In this document: piece after piece, positions 387 to 12,207 of the stretch
Layout: every line of letters begins with the position of its first letter
Position numbering within the stretch: the first letter of the stretch is position 1
From: a bacterium
Lineage (GTDB): Bacteria > SM23-31 > JAUVVT01
Length of the DNA stretch: 12,207 nt
Assembly: GCA_030616165.1 (NCBI GenBank)
Contig: JAUWXV010000105.1
Span: 1 to 12,207, forward strand
Direction of reading: 5' to 3'
Made by a program: the position numbers and the translations under genes
Notes under the pieces: model-generated
Database searches by the model: none
What the model was told of the DNA's origin: nothing
The model's input: the letters and a program-made list of their open reading frames with translations, nothing else

Positions 387-1916
387 CTATATTACTGTTT
401 GTCGGATGTTAAAAAGCCTGCAATATTCCTTTAGTTCCTGCTTGAAGTCGCCATAGAAAAAGAGCTGGTGGAAACCGGGATATGAAAGAAGGTCTGAGGG
501 GTCATTTACGCCGTCCAGTTTGACGTTTATAGATACGACGCAACCGCCTGAGGGCGGGACAGAAATATTCTCAATAACTTCTCCAGTTGAAATAATCATC
601 TCGGGTCGTTTATCTTCCATATCGATTGGGAATCTATGGGCAAATTGTGTTCTACTACTACTTTGTTGATTGAAAACGATATCAAATACTGTTACCTTTT
701 GTCCAATTTTCCATATCGTCACGGGTACTGCGTCCCGTTTGCCGTGGTGGTGAGAGAGGAAATAAGATTCAGACGGTTCAGAAAATCCATTCAAGCGTGT
801 CGGGCATGAACAATGCGCACCGATGAGACTTTTTTTCGCCGTATCAGGCACGGGGTCCTGCTGAAAACCCGGTCGGTCGAAGAGATACTGGACCAAACAG
901 TGTTTGACCACCGATGTTAAATCAGCCTCACACACAGCGGGCACGCCATCATCATTGAGTTTCGACCATGCTATACAGGGCAAACTCACGTCAGACTTGC
1001 CAAGCGCACCCAAGCAATCCATAGTAATAGCGTCTGCACCTTCACGCTCAATTATATTTCGGGCAACAACATACCCTTTTACTCCATTCAGTACATCCTG
1101 CTTTGTGGGTCCAGCCATTCTTACCGCATTCTTTATATAATCCTCTGCCATAACTTCAATTTCATCTGTTATTGGGGTTCGATTGTAATCATCAAGATAA
1201 GTTGTTGCCGGCAGGTAGAGCAATTTGACGCCAAACTGAGGGATTTCATCTTCCCTTCGTTTATTACCTCTTAGTACGACGACTCTTGTTTCACGAAGTC
1301 TTGCTCCAGCCTTTATCATCTTTATACCATAAACAGCCTGACTGAAATCATCTGTTGAGCAAATAAAAACACCGCTCATCGCATCTGCCACAGTAGTGTT
1401 TGTAGTAAACGCTGTACCTACCGGTGAAAAAACCACCGTTGGAATTTTTGTTTCAACAGTTTTGTAAACCGTTGGCCAGGAGTGTTGTTGTCTGTCAAGA
1501 ACAACAACTAAAAATCCATCGGGTTTTTCCGCTGCGGCTTCAGTTAACCACTGGTCTGCTTCTTTTAAGGAGTATATCGGGAGAGAACGGATATCAATCT
1601 TAATGCCGAGTTCTCTTTCTGCCTTTATTATCTGCTGACGATAGTTTTTGAGAGCAGTCTCACCGTCGTAAATAGCGCCGGGCCATGCCATACCATAGTC
1701 ACCTTTTCTCCTAACAAAAGCAGCCTTAATCAAAGGAACATATCTGGACGCCGGTCCTGCCATAATTTGCTTTTTCACGTTTGAACCTAAAGTGAAACCG
1801 GTATTAGAAAGTATTTTTCCTCCCAACACCGAGCCACCCGCGGCAATTTTAATAAAATCCCGGCGAGTATAACTCTTCAATCTTTCTTTATCATTTTTGT
1901 TTTTCATACTGCTCAT
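387..1916 (-). CDS. Tat-exported L-fucose/L-arabinose-isomerase-fold protein
   Basis: A 509-residue protein. I start it at the ATG at 1916, because GGAGG (complement of 1925-1929) lies eight bases upstream; an ATG five codons earlier overlaps that GGAGG. The N-terminus carries a twin-arginine signal, TRRDFIK at residues 17-23, followed by a short Gly/Ala-rich hydrophobic stretch, so export as a folded protein is expected. The body resembles the FucI/AraA superfamily. Rossmann-like N-terminal and middle domains span about residues 60-315. They are followed by a CEAD segment (329-332), a Cys/His-rich stretch with HCSCP (368-372), and a HHH cluster (389-391), where this fold places metal ligands and substrate contacts. 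The C-terminal part is beta-rich. Known members are cytoplasmic aldose-ketose isomerases; an exported one is atypical. It may be an isomerase, an epimerase or only a fold relative. The stop is TAG. It lies downstream of an MFS gene, with a 504-base gap. Confidence 0.75.
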   Translation of the reverse strand: MSSMKNKNDKERLKSYTRRDFIKIAAGGSVLGGKILSNTGFTLGSNVKKQIMAGPASRYVPLIKAAFVRRKGDYGMAWPGAIYDGETALKNYRQQIIKAERELGIKIDIRSLPIYSLKEADQWLTEAAAEKPDGFLVVVLDRQQHSWPTVYKTVETKIPTVVFSPVGTAFTTNTTVADAMSGVFICSTDDFSQAVYGIKMIKAGARLRETRVVVLRGNKRREDEIPQFGVKLLYLPATTYLDDYNRTPITDEIEVMAEDYIKNAVRMAGPTKQDVLNGVKGYVVARNIIEREGADAITMDCLGALGKSDVSLPCIAWSKLNDDGVPAVCEADLTSVVKHCLVQYLFDRPGFQQDPVPDTAKKSLIGAHCSCPTRLNGFSEPSESYFLSHHHGKRDAVPVTIWKIGQKVTVFDIVFNQQSSSRTQFAHRFPIDMEDKRPEMIISTGEVIENISVPPSGGCVVSINVKLDGVNDPSDLLSYPGFHQLFFYGDFKQELKEYCRLFNIRQTVI

Positions 1917-2064
1917 AAGGTGTTCCTCCATATTTTAAATCAGAAATGAAAGATAGAAATTGTTATAATACTAAAAATTGCGATAAAATAAAAAAATCTC
2001 TCAAATTTGTTATATTATTAGAACTCTGGTAAATTTCCGTTACATATAATGAAAAACATCTTAA

Positions 2065-2187
2065 AACAAGCAGAGTTTATTTGAAATCCGCGTTGATAAT
2101 TCAGATAAAGAAACTTTTATTGGGTCTGATGGCAAAATGGGTAAGAACAATATTACTACGGCTTTTGCATTAACTTTTACATTTTAA
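2065..2187 (+). pseudogene. Possible 3' remnant of a coding sequence (40 codons)
   Basis: Between stop codons at 2062-2064 and 2185-2187 a 40-codon frame on the plus strand reads like protein. It has a charged, Asp/Lys-rich start (IRVDNSDKETF) and ends GKNNITTAFALTFTF. The alternating hydrophobic pattern with terminal Phe resembles the closing strand of an outer-membrane beta-barrel. The only ATG is internal, there is no ribosome binding site, and the sequence upstream is not coding. I treat it as a possible gene tail left by deletion. It could equally be a chance open frame. Confidence 0.25.
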
Positions 2188-2216
2188 TGCATTATTTAAT
2201 TTGTACTATTCTATCT

Positions 2217-2230
2217 ATGTGTTAACACAT
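2217..2230. promoter_or_regulatory. 14-base perfect palindrome, possible operator
   Basis: ATGTGTTAACACAT is a perfect palindrome without a spacer, the form expected of a dimeric repressor site (LacI-type sites also centre on symmetric cores). It sits between the MFS gene ending at 2421 and the Tat-isomerase gene starting at 1916, about 300 bases upstream of the latter. No promoter is clearly paired with it, so the operator role is inference. Confidence 0.3.
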
Positions 2231-2240
2231 GAGGAATAAA

Positions 2241-2276
2241 ATTCTCAAGTGATAGACTGGTCTATCCCCTGAGAAT
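2241..2276. repeat. Two-part nested hairpin
   Basis: Outer arms ATTCTCA (2241-2247) and TGAGAAT (2270-2276) enclose inner arms GATAGAC (2251-2257) and GTCTATC (2260-2266). The interior loops of three bases on each side are symmetric. The right half reads CCCCTGAGAAT after the inner stem and so may be a diverged member of the hairpin-plus-CCCTAC family. There is no T tract on the minus strand, so it is not an obvious terminator for the MFS gene ending at 2421. Confidence 0.55.
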
Positions 2277-2301
2277 CGCTTGCATAAATTAAAAATACGA
2301 T

Positions 2302-2377
2302 GAATTTAGGATTATGAAATATTTTTTTTCAGTAATTCTTTCAGAAGTCGAGTTTACAAGATTAGAAACCTAAATTC
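2302..2377. other. Long-range 9-base inverted repeat downstream of MFS gene
   Basis: GAATTTAGG (2302-2310) and CCTAAATTC (2369-2377) are perfect complements separated by 58 bases. They lie in the 3' untranslated region of the minus-strand MFS gene ending at 2421. The arms are AT-rich and there is no clear stacked inner stem, so this could be chance or an mRNA 3' structure. Confidence 0.25.
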
Positions 2378-2420
2378 TTCTTTACGTACTGCAATTTTTA
2401 ATTTAAAACTGCTCAATTTT

Positions 2421-3563
2421 TTAGAACATTCCCATAATTATAATCATGACAAGCATAACAACTGCTGCAGCAATAGCAATCTTAAAACTCTGCTGAACAG
2501 TTCTCCCTTTCGAATAAATACCCATTGCAGCAGGAATAGTACTTGCACCAAGAAGTCCAATAGCAAATATAATCCCGAAACCGCTTCCTACTACCGGTTT
2601 AACAACCGGGTCAGCCAATGCAACGCCGAGTACTGTTGGATAGATAGGTCCAAATATCAGTCCCATAAAAATAACACCTATTGTTCCAACGATTTTTAAT
2701 TTTGCTACTGTCAGAATAATAATTATAATAATAGCTGCTATTGATAATACTATACTTACCGTTATTCCTATTTCAGGACCTACTAAAGCTTTTATACCAA
2801 AACCGGCAGCTATCAATCGCCCAAGCATAAGGCAGATCCAGTATGAAGAAAGCACAAAATTTGAACTGCGGTCTGAAAAGCCTAAACCGCTTGCATAGGA
2901 AGAAACCCATCCTCCCATTGCGTTCTCCAATCCAACGTAACAAAATAAAGCCAATGCCGAAAAAATGACGATTCCTTTACCAAGAAGAGCGAATGCCTGT
3001 GAGATTTGAAAGCCTATCTTAACTTCAGGATAGTTGGCAAAAAGAGCAAATATGATTGGCAGTAAGAGAATAATGGCAATAAAATTTCCCGTTATTTTAT
3101 ACCCAAGTTTCTTTAAAAGTATAGCAACGACAAAAGGTGTAAAAAATGCACCTAAACCAAAGAATGAATTCCCGAGACTGAGGGCAGCGGGTTCATTTTC
3201 TCCACCAAACAAAACCACTGTCATAAGTACGTTTCCTATCGTGGTCAAGCAAGTCGCGCCAATACCCATGATTATACAAGCAAAAACAGCCGTTCTGTAT
3301 GATTTCGCAGATATGAGCATAAAAAATCCAAGAAATACAATTATACTGCCAGCAACAGCAAAGAATTTGTGCCCATATGCATCAACCATTGGACCAATAA
3401 ATAATACTAAACACATCATTGTGAACATAAGGGCTGAGATAAGTCCTCCAACCTTAGCGTTATCGATATTTAGTACCTTAGCAAGTTTCAACTTTAGGGC
3501 ACCAACAGCTGCAAATATAATCCCCACAGCAAAAGCAGCCAATAATGCCACAGCCTGAATCAT
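2421..3563 (-). CDS. MFS transporter, FucP-like, copy 1
   Basis: A 380-residue, almost wholly hydrophobic protein with about twelve predicted membrane helices and no signal peptide. The loop after the second helix, GPMVDAYGHK (57-66), matches the MFS motif A pattern G-x3-D-x2-G-x-K/R. SLGNSFFGLGAFFTP (129-143) and GLENAMGGWVSSYAS (from about 212) look like the FucP/sugar-proton symporter branch, in which such Asn/Gly-rich helices line the substrate path. The start ATG has AGGAG eight bases upstream. It is a paralogue of the gene at 5198-6340: same length, near-identical stretches such as LAKVLNID and LISAKSY, and a shared C-terminus SF-x-IAIAAAV. It is about 420 bases downstream of the TIM-barrel gene. 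Substrate is inferred from neighbours to be a sugar or related compound; the sequence does not fix it. Confidence 0.85.
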   Translation of the reverse strand: MIQAVALLAAFAVGIIFAAVGALKLKLAKVLNIDNAKVGGLISALMFTMMCLVLFIGPMVDAYGHKFFAVAGSIIVFLGFFMLISAKSYRTAVFACIIMGIGATCLTTIGNVLMTVVLFGGENEPAALSLGNSFFGLGAFFTPFVVAILLKKLGYKITGNFIAIILLLPIIFALFANYPEVKIGFQISQAFALLGKGIVIFSALALFCYVGLENAMGGWVSSYASGLGFSDRSSNFVLSSYWICLMLGRLIAAGFGIKALVGPEIGITVSIVLSIAAIIIIIILTVAKLKIVGTIGVIFMGLIFGPIYPTVLGVALADPVVKPVVGSGFGIIFAIGLLGASTIPAAMGIYSKGRTVQQSFKIAIAAAVVMLVMIIIMGMF

Positions 3564-3644
3564 TTTTCTTACTCCTTTTTAATTAGTGCTTTGTTAAATA
3601 TTACTACAAAAAAAAACAGAAAAACAGACACACACAATAATAAA

Positions 3645-3785
3645 TTCTAAATACTAAACAAATTATAAATCTTAAATATTAATATCTAAATAAATCCAAA
3701 ATTCAAATTTCAAATGTTTTAAACATATTTTAACTTATCTATTATGAATTTAAACTTATATCGTTTTGAATTTAGAATTTAGAAA
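3645..3785. repeat. Degenerate AT-rich AAATT-type repeat in MFS upstream region
   Basis: Repeated AAATTC, AAATCT, AAATTT and AATTTAGAATTTAG-like units fill much of the gap between the TIM-barrel gene and the MFS start at 3563. It is the complementary counterpart of the tract at 1-66. It includes ATGTTTTAAACAT (3714-3726), six-base arms around one base, which resembles the palindrome at 2217-2230 only loosely. The remainder of 3564-3982 holds nothing else I can support. Confidence 0.4.
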
Positions 3786-3982
3786 TTGAACCATATACTG
3801 TTTAATCTTAATTTAACAGAATATCTTACTTTTCATTTTTTATTGAACAGAACCATAGCCATTAATATTAATAAATATAAATTATAAAATCAACCAAATA
3901 ATCCGGTACCTCATCGTTTCTTTGCAAGAATTAGCATATAATTTTTTTGCAGACAGCTTCTTAAAAAGATAGGAATACACCT

Positions 3983-4873
3983 CTACAATAGATTTTGATA
4001 CGCAAGAAATAGTGCTCTATAGTATCTCATTAACCGAATTGGATCGTTGCTTGCTGGTATTTCAGCACAACAGTATCCGTTATAGCCGGAATTAATAAGA
4101 AGCTGAAATAGTTTCCGATAAGGGTATTTTTCATTCCATAGTTCGGTTATATGAGCAAAGTGTATTTTCGATTTTACAAGATTAAAATTAGCTTCTAAAC
4201 CTTCATCCAGAAGGTCATTTGCATTTGAATTCCAGCATACAAAAACATTATCACAATCGGCATAATCCATTATCTTTTTTATTCTCGGAAGACGACTTGT
4301 ATCTCTGCCGTGAACCTCAAGCCTTATCTCGATGCCATAATCTCTGGCAAATTCTCCAACCTCTTTCAATGATTTTCCAATCTGTTCAAGGATTTTTTCT
4401 TCGGGAATTCCCTTTTTAACCATAAGTCCATTTGGTCTGACTTTCACCCCTTCTGCCCCAACATCACGAGCAAGTATGGCATATTCTTTTGTCCCTTCAA
4501 TATTTTTTCGAAGCACATCCGGGTCATCCGAATGATACTCAAAAGCACTCCCCAGGCTCAACAGTCTCACTGAAGAATCTTCAAATTTTTTCCCGACTTC
4601 TTTCCTCCGGGCAGAGTTGAGTTCCACTTCCACTTTGTGGGCATGGGTTGTCCGCAGTTCTACTCCCTCAAATTTTGTTTCTGTGCAGTTTTTGATTATT
4701 GTATCAATATCCCAGTCCCTTGCCAGGTTATATGTTACAAGACCAAGATGTAATTCACCTTTTACATTTTGGTTATCTTCACCCGGCCGTCCACAAACTG
4801 ATAACAAAGCAGGTATGGATGCCGAAAATACTGCAGATTTTAAAAATTTTCTTCTCGAAAATTTTTCTGACAT
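3983..4873 (-). CDS. Tat-exported xylose-isomerase-like TIM-barrel protein
   Basis: A 296-residue protein with a textbook twin-arginine motif SRRKFLK (6-12) and a short hydrophobic run ending LSVC (24-27). That Cys is not a good lipobox because Val precedes it. The remainder fits the sugar phosphate isomerase/epimerase (AP-endonuclease 2) TIM barrel. GVELR (70-74) ends an early strand, LEVHG (185-189) carries a Glu and a His, CWNSN (213-217) is a likely substrate segment, HFAHITE (238-244) carries His residues, and CAEIPA (269-274) provides the C-terminal Glu. Family members typically bind Mn, Mg or Zn through Glu, Asp/Asn, His and Glu. Start context is weak: AGGG ten bases upstream. It lies between the two MFS paralogues. 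Likely job: isomerase or epimerase acting on a sugar outside the cytoplasm; hydrolase or lyase activity cannot be excluded. Confidence 0.8.
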   Translation of the reverse strand: MSEKFSRRKFLKSAVFSASIPALLSVCGRPGEDNQNVKGELHLGLVTYNLARDWDIDTIIKNCTETKFEGVELRTTHAHKVEVELNSARRKEVGKKFEDSSVRLLSLGSAFEYHSDDPDVLRKNIEGTKEYAILARDVGAEGVKVRPNGLMVKKGIPEEKILEQIGKSLKEVGEFARDYGIEIRLEVHGRDTSRLPRIKKIMDYADCDNVFVCWNSNANDLLDEGLEANFNLVKSKIHFAHITELWNEKYPYRKLFQLLINSGYNGYCCAEIPASNDPIRLMRYYRALFLAYQNLL

Positions 4874-4969
4874 AATATTTTATCCCTACATTTAAGTTTT
4901 AAATATGTAATTGAAATTTTTAATTAAAAGTACTACTTTCATTTGAAAAGAAGGTAAACTCCACCATTA

Positions 4970-5045
4970 TCCGCCTTATGCGGAAAAGAAAATTTAAAAC
5001 TATCCCGAATAATCGGGATACTTAAATCACTTCCCAATTTGGGAA
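4970..5045. repeat. Three consecutive small hairpins
   Basis: Three perfect inverted repeats follow each other: TCCGC/GCGGA (4970-4984), TATCCCGA/TCGGGATA with a four-base loop (5001-5020), and TTCCCAA/TTGGGAA around one base (5031-5045). The middle one resembles ATCCCGA-TCGGGAT dispersed palindromes known from many environmental genomes, and shares CCCGA...TCGGG with the palindrome at 9913-9930. They lie upstream of the TIM-barrel gene and downstream of the second MFS gene. None has a T tract after it on the minus strand. Confidence 0.6.
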
Positions 5046-5048
5046 AAA

Positions 5049-5146
5049 GCCGATTGTCCGTGATATTTTGAGCAAATTAATAGAGTTTCCAAATTTTTAG
5101 TCTTCTCTTAAAGAAAAAATTATCAGTTGTATGCTCTTTAATCGGC
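5049..5146. other. Nested complementary segments, possible structured element
   Basis: Four complementary pairs nest in order: GCCGATT (5049-5055) with AATCGGC (5140-5146), GAGCA (5070-5074) with TGCTC (5132-5136), AATTTTT (5092-5098) with AAAAATT (5115-5121), and TTCT (5103-5106) with AGAA (5112-5115). The inner pairs are AT-rich and could be chance; the outer two are less so. The location, in the gap between the MFS and TIM-barrel genes, would fit a transcript leader or an inverted-repeat remnant. Confidence 0.25.
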
Positions 5147-5197
5147 AATAATTTCAGAACTTTCAAATATATATTATCTTCACCCAACAATCCAATT

Positions 5198-6340
5198 TTA
5201 AAACCGACCCATAATTAGTGCCATTATAAATAAAATTACTGCTGCAGCAATTGCAACCATAAAACTTTTTTGAATGGTCTTTCCTTTTGCGATGATACCG
5301 ATTGCAGTGGGCATAAAGCTTCCGCCAAAAAGCCCAACAGCAAATATAATCCCAAAAACACTTCCATGTAAAGCTTCGAGAGTTTTCGAAAACGTCACAC
5401 CCACAATGGTTGGAAAGATAGGTCCGAAAGCAAGTCCTGTTAATATTACCCCTATAACAGCGAGTGTTTTTGATTTTGCAACTGCCATTATACCTATTGT
5501 AATAACTGCAACTGCCGCTAATACAGCGATGACGCTGGCGCCGATTTCGGGTGTGACCAGCGGTTCAAAAACACCAAACCCGGCTGTTGTTAATCGTGCA
5601 ATCATAAGGCTAATCCAGAAAACTGAAAGAGTTATATTTGCACCTTTATCTGTAAATCCCAAGCTGCTTGCATACGTTGAAATCCATCCACCCATTGAAA
5701 ATTCTAATCCTATATAACAAACAAGAGCTAATGCTGCAATAATCACAATCCCTGATGCAAGAAGTCCAAAAGCTTTAGACATTTCAAAACCGGTAGGCAC
5801 AGATGGCAGTACTGTAATTATTGCAATTATAACCGGGATTAGTAGAATTACGGCAATAATCGTTCCTGTTGTTTTATATCCCAATTTACGAAGGAGCAGT
5901 CCGACTATTAGGGGTGTAACAAAAGCACCAAGACCAAAGAAAGTATTCCCGAGATTAAGTGCTGCGGGGGCATTTTGTCCATCGAAGAGAATCACCGGCA
6001 TAAGTGTGTTTCCCACAGTATTTAAACACATTCCCCCAACTCCCAGTATGATGCAAGCAAATACTGCCATCTTGTAGGATTTAGCCGATATAAGGAGGAA
6101 TATTGAGATAAATGCTACCAAGAATCCCACAATTGCAACAGGTTTGTATCCTACTGAATCAACTATCGGTCCCGTTATCAACACCATAATCATACTCGCA
6201 AACATTAATGTAGAAATTAAACTTCCGACTTTTGCGTCGTCGATATTGAGAACTTTTGCAAGTTCTAATTTTAGAGCGCCTATAATTGCAAAAATTACCC
6301 CCAATCCAAAGACGCTCATTAACGCTACTGATGCTGACAT
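5198..6340 (-). CDS. MFS transporter, FucP-like, copy 2
   Basis: A 380-residue inner-membrane protein, about twelve helices, paralogous along its whole length to the protein at 2421-3563. It shows the same landmarks at the same positions: motif A as GPIVDSVGYK (57-66), NLGNTFFGLGAFVTP (129-143), and GLEFSMGGWISTYAS in the second half. By eye more than half of residues are identical, with most changes inside membrane helices. GGAGG six bases before the ATG gives a strong start. On the minus strand it begins 25 bases after the stop of a truncated gene (6366-6521), so it was probably once the second gene of an operon. It is expected to be a proton-coupled sugar or polyol symporter; substrate unknown. 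Confidence 0.85.
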   Translation of the reverse strand: MSASVALMSVFGLGVIFAIIGALKLELAKVLNIDDAKVGSLISTLMFASMIMVLITGPIVDSVGYKPVAIVGFLVAFISIFLLISAKSYKMAVFACIILGVGGMCLNTVGNTLMPVILFDGQNAPAALNLGNTFFGLGAFVTPLIVGLLLRKLGYKTTGTIIAVILLIPVIIAIITVLPSVPTGFEMSKAFGLLASGIVIIAALALVCYIGLEFSMGGWISTYASSLGFTDKGANITLSVFWISLMIARLTTAGFGVFEPLVTPEIGASVIAVLAAVAVITIGIMAVAKSKTLAVIGVILTGLAFGPIFPTIVGVTFSKTLEALHGSVFGIIFAVGLFGGSFMPTAIGIIAKGKTIQKSFMVAIAAAVILFIMALIMGRF

Positions 6341-7249: not shown

Positions 7250-8614
7250 TTAGAAAAATTTACCAACAATATAACCTGCCGTCCCCAGAGCGTTGATAAA
7301 TATAGCAATTAACATCCCTAAATTCCAGAGATATCCCTTCCAGCCCCTGTTTACATATTCGCCGAGATAATCCTTTCTATTCTGCAAAATAAAGAAACAA
7401 ATAAAAGTAATTGGTGTCATGACGAGATTAAATGCAGAAGTCCAAACAGGAACCCACCAAGGCCAAGTCATAAAAGCTCCGATTATCCCAATATTTGCAA
7501 TAGAGGTTGTTAATCTAAATTTCCAGCCTCTTGGTTCAAATCCAAACATTTCAGATAATACAAATCCACATATTAACATTTCCAGAATCATTGTAGAAAC
7601 ACACATTCCTAAAATTCCGACAGATAAAATTACTCTTGCAGTTAGCAGACCAGCCAGAGGTTCAAGGGCACGGGCGACATCTGTTACGCCTTCTACATCA
7701 ACAATCCCGCTGTTTGCAACAGCAATAAGGAGCAAACTTGGCGCAATTACCGATGGAATAAACATACTCAATGTAAGGTCAAAATCTTTTAATCCTCTAT
7801 GTTCTTTAACCCACCTTCTCGCAAGCATTACATAAGGATAAAGAAATGTGGTATTAACGCCGATAGATGCGCCAAGAAGTGCCAGAATAATCATAACAGC
7901 ACTAATATCGTGCGGGATTTTAAAAAAGAAAAAACCTTTAAAAGTTGCGCCCCAGTTAATACCGGTTTTAATAACAACCAATACTAATGCTAAAACAAAA
8001 CCCCAGACCAGATACTTTAATACATGTTCAAACCTGATAATGTATTTTCTCCTCCCTGTTCCATAACTCCAGCAAATATAAGTAGATAATATGAGGAAAA
8101 AGCCAGCAATTATCACAGTGGATATCCAACCAGGCATTCCAAATTTTTCTACTGAAAACATATATTTAACCACATCCGTTCCGAGAGCATATTGAGGAAA
8201 CTGCCAAACCACAGATGCAAGGAGCACATTAATGCCCCAGAATACTGCGAGTGCCGGATGAAGTTTATTCCAGAAAACCTTATAAGGACGTTCTCCAGTA
8301 AAACAAACCTGATAACCTATTGCAGCAAGGCAGAGAATACCGAAAAACTTTCCCAACGGAACAACCCAGAGCAGATCATATCCAAATCTTCCTGCATTAA
8401 TTGCAGAACCGGCGGTTGCTGCACCAAGCGTTAATGCACTCAGAAGCCACGCTGGTCCGATAAATTTGAAATAACCTCTCCAGCGGTTGAATATTGATGG
8501 TCTATTGTTGATATCCCTCAGCGCCTCTTTTTCTTTTTCAAAAGCCGCATCGTCCTTTTTGCTAATAAAAAAGAATTTTTGTGTCTCCTTTTGATTTTCT
8601 CTATTTTCTTTCAT
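7250..8614 (-). CDS. Divergent Nramp-fold transporter lacking metal-binding motifs
   Basis: A 454-residue inner-membrane protein: a 45-residue charged cytoplasmic N-terminus, then about eleven helices. FIGPAWLLSALTLGAATAGS (51-70) aligns with helix 1 of the Nramp family, which normally reads GPG...DPGN; here GAAT (64-67) replaces DPGN. Helix 6 normally carries MPHN after GA; here GASIGVNTT (248-256) puts Gly-Val-Asn-Thr there. The Asp, Asn and Met that hold manganese or iron in canonical Nramp proteins are therefore absent, as in the remote GAGD-type branch annotated as Nramp-like. Substrate could be another cation, or an amino acid or organic solute as in other LeuT-fold (APC superfamily) carriers. 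The start has no obvious ribosome binding site, though no better start is available. The downstream partner is the 65-residue membrane protein. Confidence 0.8.
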   Translation of the reverse strand: MKENRENQKETQKFFFISKKDDAAFEKEKEALRDINNRPSIFNRWRGYFKFIGPAWLLSALTLGAATAGSAINAGRFGYDLLWVVPLGKFFGILCLAAIGYQVCFTGERPYKVFWNKLHPALAVFWGINVLLASVVWQFPQYALGTDVVKYMFSVEKFGMPGWISTVIIAGFFLILSTYICWSYGTGRRKYIIRFEHVLKYLVWGFVLALVLVVIKTGINWGATFKGFFFFKIPHDISAVMIILALLGASIGVNTTFLYPYVMLARRWVKEHRGLKDFDLTLSMFIPSVIAPSLLLIAVANSGIVDVEGVTDVARALEPLAGLLTARVILSVGILGMCVSTMILEMLICGFVLSEMFGFEPRGWKFRLTTSIANIGIIGAFMTWPWWVPVWTSAFNLVMTPITFICFFILQNRKDYLGEYVNRGWKGYLWNLGMLIAIFINALGTAGYIVGKFF

Positions 8615-8955: not shown

Positions 8956-9858
8956 ATGAAAAAATTGAAATGGATGGTTGTAATATTATTTTGTTCATTA
9001 CTTGTATTGAATTTAAATGCTGCGGATTCAGGTATAGTCATTTCTGCTTATCAAGGTCAGTGTAATGACGGCAATTTTGATGAGAATCTTAAAACTGTTT
9101 ATAGAGTAATAAAAACGGCTCTTGAGCGTAAATCTGACTTTTTATGTTTTCCGGAAACATTTTTATCAGGATATTATACAAAGGAACAGGTTTTACGAGG
9201 AGCAGTCAAATTAGATGACCCACGGTTAACAAGGCTTATCAAATCAACTGCCAATTATGATATGGTTGTCCTCGTGGGAGTGGCGGAAAAAACTGAGGAG
9301 ACTATGTATAATACTCAATTAGTGATGTATAAAGGAGAGCTTTTGGGGAAATACAGCAAAATAATGCTGATTGGAGGTGACAGGAGAATAGGGTTTGAAA
9401 CCGGGAAATCTATGCCAGTTTTCGAGGCAAAAGGCGTAAAATTTTCATGTATAATATGCGCAGATTCGTCATACCCGGAGCCAGCGCTCCTGGCACGATA
9501 CCAGGGAGCCATTCTTCTTTTCAGCCCGCATTATAATTCTCTCGCTATCGATAGAATGGATAATCATCGAATCAGGGTACGCAACAATCATATTGGAATA
9601 GCAGCATTAACGAGGATGATTGTGGTCAGGTCAAACGTTATCAACGTTCATCCGGATAGACTTGGATATGGTGACAGTGCAATCTTTGACCTGAATGGTG
9701 TACCGCTTGCTGAAGCACCCCTATTTAAAGAAACATTGATTACCGCTGAGATTGACAAAGAGACAATCGAGACCTGTAAAAAATGGAAATATCTCGAAAG
9801 ATTCCCTCAAGTATTACGAGAAAAATTGGCAAATCTATTACTTTTTGATTTACCGTAG
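8956..9858 (+). CDS. Sec-exported carbon-nitrogen hydrolase (nitrilase superfamily)
   Basis: A 300-residue protein with a Sec signal peptide (Lys-rich start, hydrophobic core 7-19, probable cleavage after NLNA at 19-22). The mature part is a single alpha-beta-beta-alpha nitrilase domain. The triad is visible: Glu67 in FPETFLSGY, Lys135 in GKYSKIML, Cys168 in CIICADSSYPE. YNT at 118-120 lies where amidases of this family have Tyr-Asn-Ser/Thr. The enzyme should hydrolyse an amide or carbamoyl C-N bond by way of a Cys thioester. Most family members are cytoplasmic, so envelope location is unusual. GGAGG six bases before the ATG fixes the start. It is the only complete plus-strand gene here, transcribed divergently from the Nramp-like gene. 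Substrate unknown. Confidence 0.85.
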   Translation: MKKLKWMVVILFCSLLVLNLNAADSGIVISAYQGQCNDGNFDENLKTVYRVIKTALERKSDFLCFPETFLSGYYTKEQVLRGAVKLDDPRLTRLIKSTANYDMVVLVGVAEKTEETMYNTQLVMYKGELLGKYSKIMLIGGDRRIGFETGKSMPVFEAKGVKFSCIICADSSYPEPALLARYQGAILLFSPHYNSLAIDRMDNHRIRVRNNHIGIAALTRMIVVRSNVINVHPDRLGYGDSAIFDLNGVPLAEAPLFKETLITAEIDKETIETCKKWKYLERFPQVLREKLANLLLFDLP

Positions 9859-10028: not shown

Positions 10029-10685
10029 CTACCAGAGACGGCCCCAACCGAAGCCTCTTCCAAGTCCCAATCCACAGGGACCTCTTCCCAATCTCGTACT
10101 ACCCAAAACATTTCTGACATAATATCCCCAATTCCCCAAACCAGTTCCATATCCCGTTCTTAATCCCAATCCTAATCCACCACAATATGGATAGAATGGC
10201 CAGCCATAACCTAAATTATTAGAATTTACAATTGCTTTTTGCTGTTCTGTGAGAATATTTCTAAAATCTTCTGAATGGGCAAAAACCTTCTTCTGAAGTT
10301 CTGCTCGAATTTTATTAATTTCATCAATCTTGACATTTATAGCCGTTTGATCAGGAGGTTGAACAATTGTAAGATTTTGAAGTTCAAGGTTTTTCTGGTT
10401 CAAACTGTTCGGAAGAGCCGCATTTTCACTCTGGAACTTAGTCTTAATTTCATTGAGTTTTTTTATTTGTTCCTGTGTTAGATTGAGTAAATTGGGATAA
10501 TTTGCAAAAGGATAACTTATTAAATTGTAAGTTTTAGGGGCTAAATAACCAGCGTATGGACATCCAGCACCCAAATAATCCATTCCTCTCCCCACTGCTC
10601 TGCCAAAAGGCTGAGAAAATCCCAGTTCCGAAAATAAGAACAAAAAGATTACAAATATTACCGAAATTATTTTATATTTTTTCAT
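10029..10685 (-). CDS. Spy/CpxP-like periplasmic protein with Gly-rich tail
   Basis: A 218-residue protein with a Sec signal peptide (hydrophobic core 5-18, likely cut after LGFS at 21-24). Two LTxxQ motifs, LTQEQ (69-73) and LTEQQ (145-149), flank a helical middle. They are the hallmark of the Spy/CpxP/ZraP family of periplasmic chaperones and metal-stress sensors. The C-terminal 60 residues are Gly/Tyr/Trp/Arg-rich, with Cys168 and Cys204, and are not part of the usual family core. GGAGG eight bases before the ATG supports the start. Last gene of the sigma/anti-sigma operon, 48 bases after the gene at 10734. Likely role: envelope stress protection, or sensing a metal or misfolded protein and passing this to the anti-sigma factor. 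Confidence 0.75.
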   Translation of the reverse strand: MKKYKIISVIFVIFLFLFSELGFSQPFGRAVGRGMDYLGAGCPYAGYLAPKTYNLISYPFANYPNLLNLTQEQIKKLNEIKTKFQSENAALPNSLNQKNLELQNLTIVQPPDQTAINVKIDEINKIRAELQKKVFAHSEDFRNILTEQQKAIVNSNNLGYGWPFYPYCGGLGLGLRTGYGTGLGNWGYYVRNVLGSTRLGRGPCGLGLGRGFGWGRLW

Positions 10686-10733
10686 TGTCTTTTCCTCCTG
10701 TTAGTTTATTTATTATTATCATTTTAACATTAT

Positions 10734-11270
10734 TTAAAAATTATTATCTCTTAACCATCTTGGCCCTCTTCCATCTCCTGTGCCTCTGCCACCCATATAT
10801 CCTTTCCCTTTTCCACCAAATGCTCTACCGCGACCGAACCTTTGATCAAACATTGAAAAATATTTTTCCTGTTGAACCGGGTTCAACAAATTTTTTTCTA
10901 TTATTATACACTTAACCGCTTCTTTCTGAAGATGTGCCTGAAGTAAACTGATTTGGTCTATCAGATTATTTATTAAATCAGTATCAGGATTCTCGCTTAT
11001 GACTGCATTAAACAATTCTATCTGCGTTTCATTTAATTTTATTCCTGCATTTTCTAATTCATTCTCAAATGATACTCTTATTTCTTCAATTTCTGCTGCC
11101 TGAGATTCGTTCAGGTTTAATTTTTCTTTTATTAAAGACTGAACCGACTTCTCCTCCTCCAATATCTCACCTCTTTTTACGATTTCACTATTGGATATGA
11201 TAGTGATTAAAGCAGAAATATTTGTTAAAAATAAAAATGTAATTACAATGATTATTATTTTCTTTTTCAT
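10734..11270 (-). CDS. Spy/CpxP-like protein with RG-rich tail
   Basis: A 178-residue protein with a hydrophobic N-terminus (4-25) that may be an uncleaved anchor, as no clear cleavage site follows. LNESQ (53-57) and LNPVQ (129-133) occupy the places of the two LTxxQ motifs, Thr being replaced by Asn, with a strongly charged helical region between them. The tail from residue 144 to 172 is Gly/Arg-rich, RFGRGRAFGG-like. This is the same architecture as the neighbour at 10029-10685 despite low identity, so they look like ancient duplicates. GAGG nine bases before the ATG supports the start. It follows the anti-sigma gene by 24 bases. Function is inferred from family and context: periplasmic stress or metal-sensing partner. 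Confidence 0.65.
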   Translation of the reverse strand: MKKKIIIIVITFLFLTNISALITIISNSEIVKRGEILEEEKSVQSLIKEKLNLNESQAAEIEEIRVSFENELENAGIKLNETQIELFNAVISENPDTDLINNLIDQISLLQAHLQKEAVKCIIIEKNLLNPVQQEKYFSMFDQRFGRGRAFGGKGKGYMGGRGTGDGRGPRWLRDNNF

Positions 11271-11294
11271 TTAAAATAACCTCATAATCTTTTT

Positions 11295-11753
11295 CTAAAG
11301 TTCTTTATAAAAATTAATATATGCATCTCCGATTGAACCTTCAGGGACTTCATCAAAAATTTCTAAATAGATGTTTTCATCAAATTCTTCCAGATATCCG
11401 CTCATTTCTTTACTTACATAAGAGTCTCCAAGTTCATAACCAAAAAATATTCCAACAGCGAATAACACTCCGTATGCAACAGGCTTGAGATATTTTATTG
11501 GATTCTCAAATATACTCCACACCTTTGGTCTTTCGTATTCCAAAATCTTTCTCTGGAGTTTTGTCCAGAAATAAGGGGAAAGTTCTGACTTTGCCGGAGA
11601 AACCACATAATTCCAGACCGAAGAGAGCTCTTTTACCAGCATTTTGCATTTCTCACATCCGAAAAGATGATTTTCTATTTTAGTTCGTTCTTTTTCTGAA
11701 ACATTCCCTTCAAGATAATCTATTATATTATTTTCAACATATTTGCAATTCAT
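11295..11753 (-). CDS. Zinc-finger anti-sigma factor
   Basis: A 152-residue protein. I start it at the ATG at 11753, with AAGGAG six bases upstream; the frame is open to an ATG ten codons earlier that lacks such a site. The N-terminus is a ZAS/zf-HC2 domain: Cys3, then His29, Cys33 and Cys36 in HLFGCEKC, with ENNIIDYLEGNVSEKER typical of the family helix. A single membrane helix follows near 91-107, and an acidic tail of about 45 residues lies on the far side. It should hold the adjacent ECF sigma factor inactive until a signal, probably detected in the periplasm. The gene starts 56 bases after the sigma stop. Confidence 0.85.
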   Translation of the reverse strand: MNCKYVENNIIDYLEGNVSEKERTKIENHLFGCEKCKMLVKELSSVWNYVVSPAKSELSPYFWTKLQRKILEYERPKVWSIFENPIKYLKPVAYGVLFAVGIFFGYELGDSYVSKEMSGYLEEFDENIYLEIFDEVPEGSIGDAYINFYKEL

Positions 11754-11809
11754 AATTTTCTCCTTATTCACTCTATTAGACACATATTATCTGATAAACT
11801 TTCGCATGA

Positions 11810-12207
11810 TTACAAAACTTCTTTAAGATATATCACAAGTTTTTTCTGAAGATTCATTTTTGCCCTGTGTATTCTTGATTCCACAGAAGAGATTGAACAT
11901 CCCATTATTTCTGCAATCTCCTCATAAGTGAATCCTTCAATATTATATAAAGTAAAAGCAACTCTCTGATTCGAAGGTAATCTATTCAATGCCTTAGAAA
12001 TAATATTCTTTTTTTCTTCGGTTATTACTTTAAAATCAGCAGTAGAATCTTGAGCGGCAGGAATTTCAGCCTCTTTACCCTCGCTTTCCTCTTTTAAACT
12101 AATTTTATTGAATATTCCCGATAATTTTATCTTTCTTATATGGTTTAATGAGCGATTTACGGCAATTCTGTATATCCAGGTGGAAATTTTAGATTCAAAT
12201 TTAAAAC
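11810..12207 (-). CDS. ECF RNA polymerase sigma factor, 5' end outside window
   Basis: The last 131 codons of a sigma-70 family ECF factor; the start lies beyond base 12207. FESKISTWIYRIAVNRSLNH, near the cut end, is region 2.3-2.4, which melts and reads the -10 element. A linker with acidic residues follows, then region 4: ALNRLPSNQRVAFTL, the helix-turn-helix GFTYEEIAEIMGCSISSV, and ESRIHRAKMNLQKKL. The stop is TAA at 11810-11812. The downstream zinc-finger anti-sigma gene is its expected partner, and the two Spy-like genes are probable members of its regulon. Confidence 0.9.
   Translation of the reverse strand, partial: FKFESKISTWIYRIAVNRSLNHIRKIKLSGIFNKISLKEESEGKEAEIPAAQDSTADFKVITEEKKNIISKALNRLPSNQRVAFTLYNIEGFTYEEIAEIMGCSISSVESRIHRAKMNLQKKLVIYLKEVL

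Follow-up and report, generated by a model that had tools for sequence, protein, structure and literature searches.

The stretch of DNA analysed here (the window) is the complete 12,207 nt contig JAUWXV010000105.1 (G000:C37) from a bacterium of the GTDB lineage SM23-31, and is best read as encoding two separate sugar enzymes that are exported by twin-arginine translocation (Tat), each near a transporter gene, and that act on sugars in the cell envelope; the probability of this reading is put at about 55 %. Two separate envelope enzymes are favoured over one dedicated isomerise-and-import operon, and much of the chemistry of free sugars in this bacterium appears to take place in the envelope. 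One enzyme is a FucI/AraA-fold protein of 514 aa (referred to as FucI-like) and the other a xylose-isomerase-like TIM barrel of 296 aa. They alternate, as an initial annotation of the sequence had described, with two transporters of the major facilitator superfamily (MFS 1 and MFS 2, 380 aa each), and all four open reading frames (ORFs) are intact on the minus strand. In transcription order, an Nramp-like gene (8614–7250) is followed by MFS 1 (6340–5198), the TIM barrel (4873–3983), MFS 2 (3563–2421) and the FucI-like gene (1931–387), with intergenic gaps of 909, 324, 419 and 489 nt, respectively. Co-transcription is not evident at such distances, and with 324–489 nt between the four genes an interleaved arrangement need not amount to one operon.

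The FucI-like protein scores below the cut-off of every Pfam and NCBIfam model. A profile built from nine members of its family matches Escherichia coli L-arabinose isomerase (AraA) when compared with solved structures (E 3.7e-6); the nine-member paralogue alignment holds no stretch conserved enough to serve as a scan pattern. An AlphaFold (AF2) model made with 57 natural homologues as input has a mean predicted local distance difference test score (pLDDT) of 86.7, and over its full length it matches AraA (E 5e-20) and FucI (E 6e-12) in Foldseek, with VIA Z-scores of 25–27 over 401–424 residues for FucI and AraA. In this model the three-domain FucI/AraA fold spans the whole chain, in agreement with the fold originally assigned.

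When the protein is aligned to E. coli AraA, E306 corresponds to E335 (927–929, minus strand, as for the codons that follow), D334 to D359 (855–857), H350 to H373 (813–815) and H450 to H488 (468–470), while E333, beside D334, corresponds to Gln358. The spacing of 24 residues between E335 and D359 is that between E337 and D361 of FucI, which pairs D359 with FucI D361. E306, H350 and H450 are metal ligands in AraA. E335, D359, H373 and H488 are invariant in close and divergent alignments alike (57 relatives, ~10 phyla), and from their alignment and invariance the active-site metal set is very probably intact. Five cysteines are also invariant in the family (C306, C319, C334, C374 and C464).

When 84,980 species genomes were scanned with an alignment, 112 relatives of the FucI-like protein were found and 80 of them kept; these are mostly 47–60 % identical and represent Planctomycetota, Verrucomicrobiota, Acidobacteriota, Sumerlaeota, Omnitrophota, Glassbacteria, Hydrogenedentota, Bacteroidota, Aminicenantes and Armatimonadota. 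The family is rare within Planctomycetota, where it occurs in 1 of 119 evenly drawn genomes, that one being the seed genome. Each of the 76 relatives whose N-terminus is intact has a twin-arginine (RR) motif with a hydrophobic stretch behind it, and 34 of the 76 carry the lipobox of a Tat-lipoprotein. Export thus seems to be a stable trait of this branch, which, judging from its sequences, is an exported family without a curated name. Distant members of the wider family without a signal exist, such as L052, L062, L183, L187–L189 and L191. No exported fucose isomerases were found in the open-access literature.

In the window, the FucI-like protein carries the motif TRRDFIK at residues 22–28 (R23-R24, 1860–1865) and the TIM barrel carries SRRKFLK at residues 6–12 (R7-R8, 4850–4855), both on the minus strand. 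The same genome encodes TatC (E 3e-64) and has an RR motif in 6 of its 7 FucI-family members; the RR motifs on both window enzymes appear far from chance. Both signals had been called clean: the twin arginines hold for both proteins, but the FucI-like signal is less clean than claimed, with Lys39 breaking its hydrophobic stretch.

The FucI-like Tat signals show an additional feature. Ahead of the twin arginine, 59 of 76 (L063–L142) have at least two cysteines in the n-region, across at least five phyla, a typical signal reading RC[PA]xxC..H..xRRxFL. The same feature is seen in only 1 of the 40 further Tat-like ORFs of these loci and in 0 of 50 Tat-exported TIM barrels; the FucI-like protein of the window is without it. 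One possible reading of the cysteine motif is a metal- or redox-sensitive export signal.

The TIM barrel matches PF01261 above cut-off (E 2.5e-18) and D-tagatose 3-epimerase by profile (E 1.5e-6). According to the profile alignment its metal quartet is Glu186, Asn215, His241 and Glu271, and thus departs from the Glu-Asp-His-Glu set: Asn215 (4229–4231, minus strand) stands at the metal ligand Asp185 of D-tagatose 3-epimerase, and Asn occupies this position in 78 of 79 family sequences. Glu186, the equivalent of the catalytic, metal-binding Glu, is replaced in a few paralogues; it is Cys in L054 (5484–6371) and L055 (8956–9846), where the remaining site is kept. The family has a further conserved motif, RTTHxH. 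The isomerase or epimerase role proposed for the TIM barrel is not established, given this Asp-to-Asn change and the fact that 3-keto-glycoside beta-eliminases and hydratases exist among sugar-isomerase-like metal enzymes (PMC10628242); the fold alone cannot decide between epimerase, eliminase and hydratase.

The TIM family has both Tat and cytosolic forms. Tat signals are present on 51 of 60 TIM homologues in genomes holding the exported FucI family. A cytosolic orthologue, ~60 % identical, is single-copy in 76 of 84 genomes of another phylum (that of G044); these 76 proteins align to the window protein from about residue 33–54 on and are missing the first ~40 residues, which make up its Tat signal region (4754–4873, minus strand). 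A tree of 78 TIM sequences requires six switches between the Tat form and the cytosolic one; since well-supported branches force at least three of these, the family has changed over no fewer than three times. In the genome of the window, 19 of the 21 PF01261 proteins examined have an RR motif, and Tat signals on TIM barrels are thus routine there. Planctomycetota also have Tat-exported TIM proteins of ~600 aa (L225, L227–L229, L232, L234 and L246). In L227, the one that was scanned, the C-terminal domain is DUF6807 (PF14100, E 1.9e-75), and the sequences of the others look similar.

MFS 1 (PF07690, E 5e-21) and MFS 2 (PF07690, E 5e-18) are 58 % identical. Their nearest solved relatives are VMAT (VMAT2 among them), VAChT and EmrD, the closest NCBIfam model is TsgA (E 5e-13), and FucP is absent from their matches at E 0.01. 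The description of the pair as FucP-like is therefore rejected, although they may carry sugars. The gene upstream on the same strand (7250–8614) encodes a transporter of the Nramp superfamily. DPGN in TM1 is the metal-binding motif of Nramp transporters; no DPGN was found in the inspected stretch of the window protein. Relatives of this gene lie between two FucI paralogues in L053 (2077–3348), ~4.4 kb from FucI in L067 (4024–5559) and near a TIM gene in L222 (1896–3143), which makes it a possible recurrent partner of the FucI and TIM genes. The L053 protein is also without DPGN, and from the missing motif the substrate of both it and the window protein may not be a metal ion.

A sequence of events consistent with these features can be outlined. 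The FucI-like protein would be loaded with a divalent metal in the cytoplasm, fold and then cross through the Tat translocase; outside the inner membrane it would most likely act as an aldose-ketose isomerase, or a close variant, on an unphosphorylated sugar. The TIM barrel would most likely work alongside Gfo/Idh/MocA oxidoreductases, with keto-sugars or 3-keto-glycosides as its substrates, as its neighbours in related genomes suggest. The MFS pair might conceivably import the products. The FucI and TIM families belong to the same genomic repertoire, not to one operon.

That repertoire is evident at the genome level, and to this extent the predicted recurrence in other genomes was borne out. 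With presence set at E 1e-40 or better, the TIM family occurs in 44 of 50 FucI-bearing genomes, compared with 13 of 118 Planctomycetota background genomes without the FucI family. Within Planctomycetota alone (phylum taken from the database record), the figures are 23 of 25 with FucI and 13 of 118 without (Fisher p 2.5e-15). These counts take no account of clade structure or lifestyle, and the co-occurrence is therefore an association and not a demonstration of a shared pathway. The two families differ in their neighbours: Gfo/Idh/MocA genes lie within ~4 kb in 24 of 60 TIM loci and in 10 of 80 FucI loci, and DUF6807 within ~4 kb in 12 of 60 and 1 of 80, respectively. The commonest FucI neighbours are a ~570-aa protein without a Pfam match (18/80) and a PadR-type regulator (10/80), mostly in Phycisphaerae and other Planctomycetota; neither occurs in the window. 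In Phycisphaerae and related Planctomycetota (L088, L089, L090, L091, L097, L119 and others), the PadR regulator and the ~570-aa protein often precede FucI, and an HflX-like GTPase gene often follows it.

No conserved cluster accompanies this co-occurrence. Flanks of up to 10 kb around the 80 FucI loci contain no TIM barrel of the window family, and the MFS family is beside FucI in one of the 80, Glassbacteria L082, where the genes are divergently adjacent. In the nearest relative (G001) the FucI, TIM and MFS orthologues are on three different contigs. The expectation of a conserved gene set thus fails, and operon conservation is rejected as a functional argument. The scattered G001 orthologues are also among the points that weigh against the favoured reading itself. 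Across phyla, the 80 loci yield no conserved partner gene of the FucI family, and the co-occurrence of the two families may reflect lineage or lifestyle (large, enzyme-exporting heterotrophs) and not a shared pathway. At the residue level, AraA E333 is Gln358 in the FucI-like protein, and the single-sequence structure model of the TIM barrel is unusable (pLDDT 40), so that its site is placed by alignment only. Finally, the isomerase role and the substrate of either enzyme are only inferred.

Several of these observations bear on other explanations too. The four neighbouring genes on one strand, the metal residues of the FucI-like protein, the co-occurrence of both enzymes in genomes and the adjacency of FucI and MFS in L082 would all fit a single unit, in which periplasmic enzymes isomerise or epimerise a sugar and the two MFS symporters import it. 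Such a unit is nevertheless improbable given the gaps of 324–489 nt, the unlinked genes of G001, the absence of TIM within 10 kb of any of the 80 FucI loci and the lack of FucP-likeness in the transporters. A terminator-like hairpin in the MFS 1/TIM gap (5001–5020, minus strand) points the same way, if weakly, as such hairpins are no commoner in the window than chance would give (7 found, 6.5 expected). The pathway interpretation of the initial annotation is, as a whole, partly supported. The neighbours of the TIM family lend themselves to a different scheme, in which the TIM barrel follows a Gfo/Idh/MocA or flavin 3-dehydrogenase as a periplasmic lyase, hydratase or hydrolase of 3-keto-glycosides, and the keto-sugar set free is then converted by the FucI-like protein. 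Agrobacterium and gut bacteria have sugar-isomerase-like metal enzymes that act on 3-keto-glycosides as Mn-dependent beta-eliminases or hydratases (PMC10628242), 3-ketoglycoside cleavage in Caulobacter is proposed to be periplasmic (PMC9007349), and 24 of the 60 TIM loci have Gfo/Idh/MocA nearby; yet the window contains no such dehydrogenase, the ligand Asp is Asn in the TIM family and the FucI-like protein has no direct link to keto-sugars, leaving this scheme somewhat unlikely.

The FucI-like protein could also have kept its fold and lost its isomerase chemistry, and act after export in sugar binding or in sensing. The likeness of its N-terminal domain to periplasmic sugar-binding proteins (a weak Peripla_BP_4 match is found in 38 of 57 members), the Gln at the AraA E333 position and the frequent Tat-lipoprotein form in its family speak for this. 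However, the N-terminal domains of AraA and FucI likewise resemble periplasmic binding proteins, and the metal residues are invariant across ~10 phyla; a role in binding or sensing is accordingly improbable. A non-catabolic role, for example in modifying sugars of envelope glycans or lipids, would suit co-occurrence without a conserved catabolic operon and a cytosolic TIM orthologue that 76 of the 84 genomes from one phylum keep as a single copy, but the multi-copy expansion in exporting genomes and the Gfo/Idh/MocA, sulfatase and transporter neighbours make such a biosynthetic function very unlikely.

The rest of the window holds genes of other kinds. The region 10029–12205 encodes an extracytoplasmic function (ECF) sigma factor, a zinc-finger anti-sigma factor and two LTXXQ/Metal_resist proteins, and resembles an envelope-stress unit. 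A carbon-nitrogen hydrolase with an apparent Sec-type N-terminus lies at 8956–9858; elsewhere in the same genome (L050, 6366–7199), a second ORF of this type, also with a Sec-type start, is directly upstream of a FucI paralogue.

In textbooks, aldose-ketose isomerisation takes place in the cytosol, ahead of kinases, and the studied relatives of both enzymes work inside the cell. The existence of a large and conserved FucI/AraA family that is apparently always exported, in Planctomycetota, Verrucomicrobiota, Acidobacteriota and several candidate phyla, suggests chemical handling of sugars before uptake, which, if true, changes the genome-based prediction of carbohydrate pathways in these bacteria. 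With two separate envelope enzymes as the favoured reading, a wider generalization can be offered tentatively: an unnamed, always Tat-exported FucI/AraA branch of ~10 phyla might use a metal to isomerise free sugars in the envelope, and share its genomic repertoire with a keto-sugar TIM family that moves between cytosol and envelope. The latter, one conserved enzyme in Tat and cytosolic forms, lends itself naturally to testing why an enzyme comes to work on the other side of a membrane.

Compared with characterized systems, the FucI-like family shares with AraA and FucI the full-length fold (Z 25–27) and the equivalents of AraA E306, D334 (FucI D361 by spacing), H350 and H450. It differs in its low identity to them (11–14 %), in the Tat signal of every intact member seen, in Gln at AraA E333 and in its five invariant cysteines. 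The model of the sulfoquinovose isomerase SftI (NF048012) is matched by 42 of 57 members (best E 4.8e-6), but in the window protein the match is short and its 13.6 bits are far below the curated cut-off of 700; SftI is not known to be exported. The MFS pair resembles the TsgA/EmrD/VMAT group through the TsgA model (E 5e-13) and solved VMAT2, VAChT and EmrD, whereas identities of 57–59 % are confined to its own small group. The TIM barrel agrees with D-tagatose 3-epimerase and other PF01261 barrels in its profile match (E 1.5e-6) and in the E, H and E of the quartet, and departs from them in the Asn for the ligand Asp (78/79), in RTTHxH and in the Tat signal of part of the family. A periplasmic 3-ketoglycoside route has been proposed in Caulobacter (PMC9007349). 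AtOGE and CGE are Mn-dependent 3-keto-glycoside beta-eliminases and AtHYD is a hydratase (PMC10628242). Like the TIM barrel, they are sugar-phosphate-isomerase-like metal enzymes connected with keto-sugars and with pathways containing Gfo oxidoreductases; the likeness is one of kind and not of demonstrated sequence-level membership, and the accessible part of that source does not mention Tat export for them (PMC10628242).

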